Made by a program: the position numbers and the translations under genes | IMG/VR virus record: IMGVR_UViG_3300033052_000083 | Coordinates: 1 to 26,406 of that record | Reading direction: 5' to 3' (one strand) | Source: a virus | Length of the DNA stretch: 26,406 nucleotides | Notes under the pieces: generated by a model | Seen by the model: only the letters and a program-made list of their open reading frames with translations | What the model was told of the DNA's origin: nothing | Databases searched by the model: none | In this document: positions 21,003 through 23,253 of the stretch, piece by piece | Layout of the letters: the number at the start of each line of letters is the position of its first letter | Numbering within the stretch: position 1 is the first letter of the stretch

Positions 21003-23253
21003 CCGGACGCTGGCCTATGCCAAGGCGGTGGCCGCAGGCGATATCGTCGCCGGGCCGCACGTGCGCAATGCCTGTAAACGGCACATTGCGGATCTGAAGC
21101 GCAAGGACGGCATCTGGTTCGACCACGATGCGGCCAATCACGCCTTCGCCTTTTTCGAGGAGGTACTAAAGCTCTCCGAGGGCCAGTTCGAAGGAGAACC
21201 CTTCCGGCTCGAGCCCAGCCAGGCGTTCATCGTGGGCTCGTTGTTCGGCTGGAAACGCAAGGATGGTCGCCGCCGGTTCCGCCGCGCCTACATCGAGCAA
21301 GGCAAGGGCAACGGGAAGTCGCCGGTTGCAGGCGGCATCGGCATCTACGGGATGACCGCCTGCCAGGAAGCTGGCGCCCAGATCTATGCGGCCGCGGCCA
21401 AGAAGGAGCAGGCCAACATTCTGTTCCGCGACGCGGTGCGGATGGTCCGGCAATCGCCAGCTCTGGCACGGCGGCTGGAGTTTTCGGGAGGACCGGGCCG
21501 CGAGTTCAACATCGCGCATCTGGCCAGCGGGAGTTTTTTTCGCCCAGTGTCGCGCGATACCGGCAAGACCGGCTCGGGCCCTCGACCATACTTTGTGCTG
21601 GCGGACGAGGTTCACGAGCTTCCCGACCGCTCGATCATCGAGATGCTGGAGCGCGGCTTCAAATTCCGCCGCGATCCGCTGCTGTTCATGATCACCAACT
21701 CGGGCTCGGACCGCAATTCGGTCGCATGGGAGGAACACGAACACGCCATCCGGGTCGCGGCTGGCAATCCTGACGCAGTGACTGACCCGACCTTTCTGGG
21801 TCAGGTCATTGACGACACGACGTTCAGCTACGTCTGCGCACTCGACGAGGGCGACGACCCGCTTACCGACCCCAGCTGCTGGATCAAGGCGAACCCGCTG
21901 CTGGGCGTCACGATCACGGAGCAGTACCTCTCGGAAGTGGTGGCGCAGGCGAAAGCCATCCCGGGACAATTGAACGGCATCCTGCGTCTCCACTTTTGTG
22001 TGTGGACCGATGCCGAAACCGCCTGGATGGCGCGCTCAACGCTCGAGCCGCTGCTGGCCGAGTTCGAACCCAAGGCTGGGCAGTCTGTGTGGCTCGGGCT
22101 CGATCTCAGCCAGAACCGGGATTTGACCGCACTGGCGGCTGTTCAGCGCAGTGGCGAGAAGGACGGCAAACCCTGCTTTGATGCATGGGTCGAGGTCTGG
22201 ACGCCGGGCGATACGCTCGCCGCGCGGGTGCTGCGCGACAAGCAGCCCTACGATCTCTGGGTCGCAGATGGATTTTTGAATGCACCCGCGGGCGAGAACA
22301 TCAGCTTTCGCCATGTGGCGCAGGCCTTGGCCGAGATAGCCTCGGACTACCGGGTCGAGGCGGTCGCCTACGACCGTTACGCGTTCCGGCGCTTCGAAGA
22401 AGAAGTCGCCGAACTCGGGCTAGACCTCGCGTTTGTCGAGCACCCGCAGGGCGGCACCAAGCGGGCCAAGCCTGCGGGCGAGATGACAGAAGGCCTATGG
22501 ATGCCGGGTTCGCTCCGACACCTGGAAGAACTGATCCTTGAAGGCCGCATTCGCCTGGCCCCGCAAAAGGACTGGGCGGGGAACGAGTCGGAGCGGTTGG
22601 CCCGCGTGCTGGCCGTGCTGGAACCTATCGCGGCGGAAACCGGCGCCAGCTTGGCCGATGTGATCGTGCTGGCGGGCAACGTGGGGGTCGAGCAGGCCGC
22701 AAAGGCTGCCGGGTTCGATGTGACGGTGCCGCTCGCGCCGGGTCGCGGCGATGCCACGCCCGAGCAGACCGATGCGGAATCGTTCGAGGTGCTGGAACCG
22801 CTGGCCGATGGCTATCGCAACTGGCTGAAGCAGCACTATACGGTCCAGCCGGAGGAACTGCTGCTCGACCGCACGCAGTTGATGGGCCTGACCGCGCCGG
22901 AAATGACCGTGCTGGTGGGCGGGCTGCGGGTGATCGGCACCAACCACGGCGGGACGAAGCACGGTGTGTTCACGGACCGCGAAGGGGCCCTGACCACGGA
23001 CTTCTTCGTCAACCTGACCGACATGGCCAACACCTGGGTGCCAACGGGCCGCAACAGCTATGAAATCCGCGACCGCACGACCGGGGCGGTGAAGTGGACC
23101 GCCACCCGCGTCGATCTGGTGTTCGGATCAAATTCGGTCCTGCGCGCCTATTCCGAAGTCTATGCCCAGGACGATGCCAAGGCGAAGTTCGTGAATGACT
23201 TCGTCGCGGCCTGGACCAAGGTGATGAACGCCGACCGGTTCGATCTGGCCTGA
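20932..23253 (+). CDS. Chimeric ORF: terminase large subunit (truncated) fused in frame to KatG C-terminal domain
   Basis: One uninterrupted 773-codon frame. Residues 1 to about 541 are a Terminase_1-type large subunit: GKGNGKS (124-130) is Walker A, ADE (224-226) is Walker B, and [10 protein letters not shown] (D391) plus [11 protein letters not shown] hold the first two acids of the RNase H-like nuclease. The last part of the nuclease domain, with the remaining acid, is missing. From about residue 538 the sequence is catalase-peroxidase. The shared GRIR (22543-22554) fits both proteins and marks a microhomology junction. Start GTG 20932 overlaps terS by 71 bp; GTG 20971 is an alternative. 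As a packaging ATPase this protein is unlikely to work. Confidence 0.88.
22543..23253 (+). pseudogene. katG: 3' fragment of catalase-peroxidase katG
   Basis: From [14 protein letters not shown] to the end, this is the C-terminal, non-heme domain of a bacterial Kat[19 protein letters not shown], then [52 protein letters not shown] and the C-terminal [10 protein letters not shown]. About 236 residues remain of a protein that is usually near 730-750 aa. The N-terminal heme domain with its Arg-Trp-His active site is absent from the window, so no catalase activity is possible. An intrinsic terminator follows, as expected for an original katG 3' end. Confidence 0.93.

Follow-up and report, generated by a model that had tools for sequence, protein, structure and literature searches.

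A terL–katG hybrid reading frame in a viral contig: probably a one-off scar or an assembly artefact rather than a working protein

A reading frame that begins as the large subunit of a phage terminase (TerL) and ends as a catalase-peroxidase (KatG) raises the question of whether a phage gene and a metabolic gene have been combined into a new protein, whether the frame is the scar of a DNA rearrangement, or whether it is an artefact of the contig in which it was found. The frame (20932 to 23253, + strand, 773 aa, GTG start) lies in the IMG/VR virus record IMGVR_UViG_3300033052_000083, the whole of which, 26,406 bp, is the window analysed here. A sequence-only reading of this DNA had described the frame as TerL continued in frame by KatG, on which Pfam, NCBIfam and the PDB structures of KatG agree, and had named an assembly chimera and an exapted fusion as the alternatives to a deletion; these proved to be the right ones to weigh. 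A scar that arose once, or else a fault of assembly, is a better reading of the hybrid than a functional protein.

From left to right the window contains a mer module, a prophage running from its serine-recombinase end to terL, and Novosphingobium chromosomal DNA. The mer module (1 to 2607, + strand, with a MerR-like gene on the - strand, merT, merP and merA) forms the left flank. MerT and MerA were identified by profile, and the module is 92% identical to its counterpart on a Sphingopyxis indica plasmid. The prophage remnant (2827 to 22557) has a large serine recombinase, the phage integrase (3200 to 4678, - strand), at its left end and carries genes for a helicase, a Sak4-like annealing protein, an exonuclease, a primase, a methyltransferase and the terminase small subunit (terS, 20469 to 21002, + strand); its late genes are missing. 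The Novosphingobium part consists of the 3' third of katG, a GH97 glycoside hydrolase gene and a lysC gene cut by an IS3-type element.

The hybrid is TerL up to about residue 542, followed by the 235 C-terminal residues of KatG. Pfam places TerL_ATPase (PF03354) at residues 97–271, TerL_nuclease (PF20441) at 292–531 and the peroxidase family at 539–747. The NCBIfam model cat_per_HPI matches residues 539–772 (1.4e-108), beginning at profile position 475 of 716 and reaching 364 bits against a cut-off of 770, and the KatG structures in the PDB align from residue 538. Residues 1–542 (20932 to 22557, + strand) are 96–98% identical to the intact 607-residue TerL of Sphingomonadales phages and resemble terminases of the P27 or HK97 type, with the ATPase domain present and most of the nuclease domain. 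The nuclease domain is not complete, as its profile ends at position 236 of 286 in the hybrid versus 285 of 286 in an intact relative (L097), the last 65 residues of TerL having been replaced. The lost residues include a KID segment that is conserved in nearly all of 55 relatives (tail consensus) and which we take to carry a catalytic aspartate of TerL nucleases.

The KatG half (22546 to 23253, + strand; residues 539–773) is 97% identical at the amino acid level to Novosphingobium arvoryzae KatG and has no N-terminal heme domain. Nor is its C-terminal domain whole. Relative to the crystallised C-terminal domain of E. coli KatG (1u2j, 326 residues), it lacks the first 89 residues, approximately a quarter of the domain, and aligns with residues 90–325. 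Neither the TerL half nor the KatG half is therefore a complete domain. The C-terminal domain of KatG is no longer catalytic itself, and without it the heme site in the other domain is perturbed (PMC4416395).

Because the KID segment and some 90 residues of the KatG C-terminal domain are missing, a functional TerL–KatG fusion is very unlikely, and any hybrid protein that is made would be expected to have no activity. It is scarcely credible that the frames were recently fused in living Novosphingobium and that the product is expressed and retained because it does something new, for example as a packaging ATPase to which the KatG C-terminal domain has been added. In its favour are a frame that is open over 773 codons and two halves that are stop-free with low nonsynonymous change; however, an open frame is expected of any recent joint without selection, the heme domain and the portal and capsid genes are gone, and no second instance was found in which conservation of the hybrid could be shown. 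The in-frame state itself carries little weight and needs no special cause, since about one joint in three is in frame by chance once the strands agree. The ratio of nonsynonymous to synonymous change in the terL part is 0.21 versus its relatives and 0.25 among those relatives, and of the codon differences between the katG part and N. arvoryzae, 6 are nonsynonymous and 36 synonymous. Neither half has decayed, and the joint is therefore recent or artificial; the low nonsynonymous change is no evidence of selection on the hybrid.

The position of the joint is narrowly defined. Phage relatives match the window as far as 22554–22557 and then continue into the tail of terL, with no similarity beyond, and katG relatives match rightwards from 22545/22546 and differ to the left. 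The crossover lies within 22546–22554, or extends to 22557 if locus L100 represents the phage parent. With the parental sequences reconstructed from relatives, the overlap common to both is CGCATTCGC, which is 9 bp, or up to 12 bp when CTG is included (22546 to 22557, + strand, CGCATTCGC(CTG)). The changeover had been placed in GGCCGCATTCGC (22543–22554) by the sequence-only reading, which was nearly right, although the first bases of that stretch are found in the phage only and the katG codon differs there. The joint is homology-guided, since at least 9 bp of shared sequence would occur at a random terL/katG joint at a frequency of only about 1e-4; recombination would account for this, as would an artefact that likewise uses short overlaps. 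An integrase site inside katG was rejected as an explanation, the joint being inside terL and the recombinase at the other end of the prophage.

No independent genome in the collections searched shares the joint, and there is no conserved TerL–KatG gene fusion among them. Searching 84,980 species genomes with the whole hybrid brought up no relative of the fusion. In IMG/VR there were 0 exact matches to the 38-mer across the joint, and the 80 best matches to the junction peptide all stop at residue 53 of 100; the occurrence of this junction in other strains, proposed earlier as a check, was thus not borne out. The KatG part matches IMG/VR viral contigs at 47 loci, where no fusion was found; those inspected encode whole KatGs. 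Across 196 Novosphingobium genomes every match either stops at residue 543 or starts at about residue 538 or slightly earlier, with no joint. Of the matching phage and plasmid records (1331 and 1488), 0 cover 80% of the hybrid, and a literature search found no TerL–KatG fusion.

About 40 viral contigs in IMG/VR (L302–L344, several of them 40–114 kb) have a KatG of 40–53% identity. Those inspected are full-length frames of about 690–770 aa, some located after apparent tRNA arrays. They have no clear cultured phage match in INPHARED, where the matches seem to be bacterial contigs or mislabelled records. These genes may be phage-borne catalase-peroxidases or may reflect host contamination.

The phage side of the joint can be compared with intact relatives. 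Colinearity with an IMG/VR record of 34,977 bp (G006) extends over window positions 2827 to 22556, from the recombinase end to terL; the record's own end coincides with window position 2817 approximately and it carries 15.5 kb more past terL. The terL loci examined number 145 including the window itself (L001). Of the 144 others, 132 have a complete terL, and a portal gene is in hand after 128 of these, mostly at a distance of 0–6 bp. In ten the contig stops within the gene, and in two divergent ones the alignment ends slightly early. Only in the window does terL stop at this point with 1.7 kb of sequence behind it. No portal gene follows the hybrid, where katG, GH97 and lysC come next, and the head maturation protease, major capsid, head-tail connector and major tail protein genes are missing as well.

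A near-identical prophage with an intact terL was sought, and the closest (L213, IMGVR_UViG_3300045452_000025) is 98.3% identical over 3028–17072 of the window, on a contig that ends before terL. It is abruptly different to the left of 3028, in a small gene beside the recombinase, and to the right of 17072. These breaks mark the limits of recombination between phages that are close relatives. Another broken terL of the phage family is present in IMGVR_UViG_2848704822_000001 (L390, 11340–11458), where the same gene stops at about residue 448–469 and runs into what by eye is the apparent start of an IS256-type transposase, located at the contig end.

On the host side, a whole katG (719 aa) lies next to lysC in N. 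arvoryzae, the two genes converging, and the arrangement is the same in another genome (G159). In the window a segment with the GH97 gene (23343 to 25455, + strand; CDS 23423–25432) lies between them, which is absent from this location in both genomes. Because GH97 adjoins lysC in a further genome (G148), the GH97–lysC neighbourhood is ordinary synteny, and a further chimeric join at GH97 was rejected on this ground. The remaining 3' part of lysC encodes the ACT domains (25454 to 26077, - strand, 98.6% DNA identity to N. arvoryzae), the gene being cut between its kinase and ACT parts. Homology to lysC ends at 26077 in every genome, exactly where the terminus TGATCTGCCCCC of the IS3-type element begins (26078 to 26406, + strand, continuing past the contig end), and other copies of the element have different flanks. 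The lysC/IS border at 26078 is therefore a true transposition boundary.

The gene lysC is single copy in nearly all of the 120 Novosphingobium genomes searched and is expected to be essential. In a viable cell a broken lysC would be surprising, except where the segment is duplicated. Three readings suggest themselves: duplication of the 3.5-kb piece, auxotrophy of the cell, or a contig that combines different molecules. The katG-GH97-lysC piece may be a displaced extra copy, distinct from the chromosomal locus, on an element that also holds the mer genes, the prophage remnant and the IS, with the terL joint as one end of the piece. This is a tentative suggestion, and it is a sub-case of real DNA that overlaps with illegitimate recombination. 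It is consistent with the truncation of both end genes of the piece (at 22546 and 26077), with a second lysC being suggested by the broken one, and with the plasmid affinity of the mer module; however, no plasmid record carries the katG-GH97-lysC piece, only the mer module having matches there, and there is no IS at the terL end.

Somewhat favoured over all else is that the hybrid frame is the scar of microhomology-mediated illegitimate recombination in real DNA. A prophage terL and an unrelated Novosphingobium katG would have been joined at the 9–12 bp of microhomology, probably while a break was being repaired by annealing of strands that share short homology, which is the bacterial counterpart of microhomology-mediated end joining. 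Aberrant excision of lambda would be an analogue of this route; illegitimate recombination in E. coli, known from such excision, uses limited homology and has been likened to microhomology-mediated end joining (PMC3375238, PMC11372144). The outcome would be a prophage without its late half and a katG without its heme domain, in frame by chance. The prophage would keep its recombinase and replication genes and make no particles, and would thus be defective, and both the katG remnant and the joined product would presumably be functionless.

Several findings point to a molecule carrying the joint having existed. Homology switches abruptly at one point, the prophage is colinear with its relative up to a gene that is normally followed by a portal, both sides of the joint are Sphingomonadales DNA, there is little decay in either part, the contig ends in a repeat and a second clean rearrangement is present at the IS end. 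Overlaps of 9–12 bp are shorter than the usual assembly k-mers, and a plain graph error would for that reason not make this joint. Against real DNA are the single contig on which it rests, the cut lysC on that contig, and the prophage and katG being neighbours in no genome examined; in two genomes (G144 and G094) they are on different contigs. The deletion proposed by the sequence-only reading is consequently upheld in part. A joint at short microhomology is present, and the TerL C-terminus, the head and tail genes and the first two thirds of katG are missing, with a single deletion as at most a possible cause.

Close behind illegitimate recombination, and in itself a little below even chances, is an artefact in which a phage contig and a Novosphingobium chromosomal contig form a chimera. 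Such a chimera could arise during amplification or library preparation, or through an assembler bridging two tips that overlap by about 10 bp. Given read pairs that connect two tips, SPAdes bridges the gap between them when they overlap by about 10 bp. Tip joining of this kind and template switching can both use overlaps of the size seen here. A joint that is unique across all collections searched and partners, one phage and one host, that are never adjacent elsewhere favour this explanation, and a contig combining different molecules would make the dead copy of lysC less surprising. Overlaps of such size are used by MDA chimeras, which arise about once per 22 kb and in most of whose junctions 2–21 nt are complementary (PMC1855051); the complementarity peaks at 6 nt (PMC4595205). 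However, inversion accounts for 85% of MDA chimeras, and where distant segments are joined directly, only 27.6% of the joints have microhomology (PMC1855051); the comparison moreover presupposes that the sample was amplified. The common bacterial order of the two sides also argues against an artefact, as does the lysC/IS border, which falls exactly at the IS terminus without such an overlap and looks read-supported. The small probability that is left beside recombination and artefact is shared by a selected fusion and unforeseen cases.

Illegitimate recombination at this locus would resemble the origin of lambda Spi- and transducing phages by aberrant excision, in which prophage and bacterial DNA are likewise joined at limited homology with the loss of part of the phage. 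It differs in that a contig with the integrated left end is seen here instead of a packaged phage, and katG is not known to have neighboured the prophage. Defective (cryptic) prophages likewise keep the recombinase end and early genes and lose head and tail genes, but they usually end in ordinary disrupted genes and not in an in-frame hybrid with a metabolic gene. MDA and library chimeras also have joints at a few to 21 bp of complementarity, yet are usually inverted and close together. If real, the joint is a clean natural example of prophage disarming, in which a microhomology joint has removed the whole late half, and the hybrid frame left behind can still be read, which illustrates a way for gene fusions to begin. 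Should it be an artefact, it is a warning that viral contig collections contain phage-host chimeras resembling gene fusions. In neither case does it amount to a new kind of system; it is an ordinary scar or artefact.

Two other regions of the prophage were noted. Between the replication modules (9591–11872, - strand) are two overlapping genes encoding 386 and 384 aa, neither with a match in Pfam, PHROGs, NCBIfam or PADLOC, the second having just 7 IMG/VR relatives; the pair could be an accessory or defence cassette. A ParE/ParD-like toxin-antitoxin pair is located at 18137–18747 (- strand), in a stretch (18122–18788) that lacks a counterpart in most of the phage relatives.
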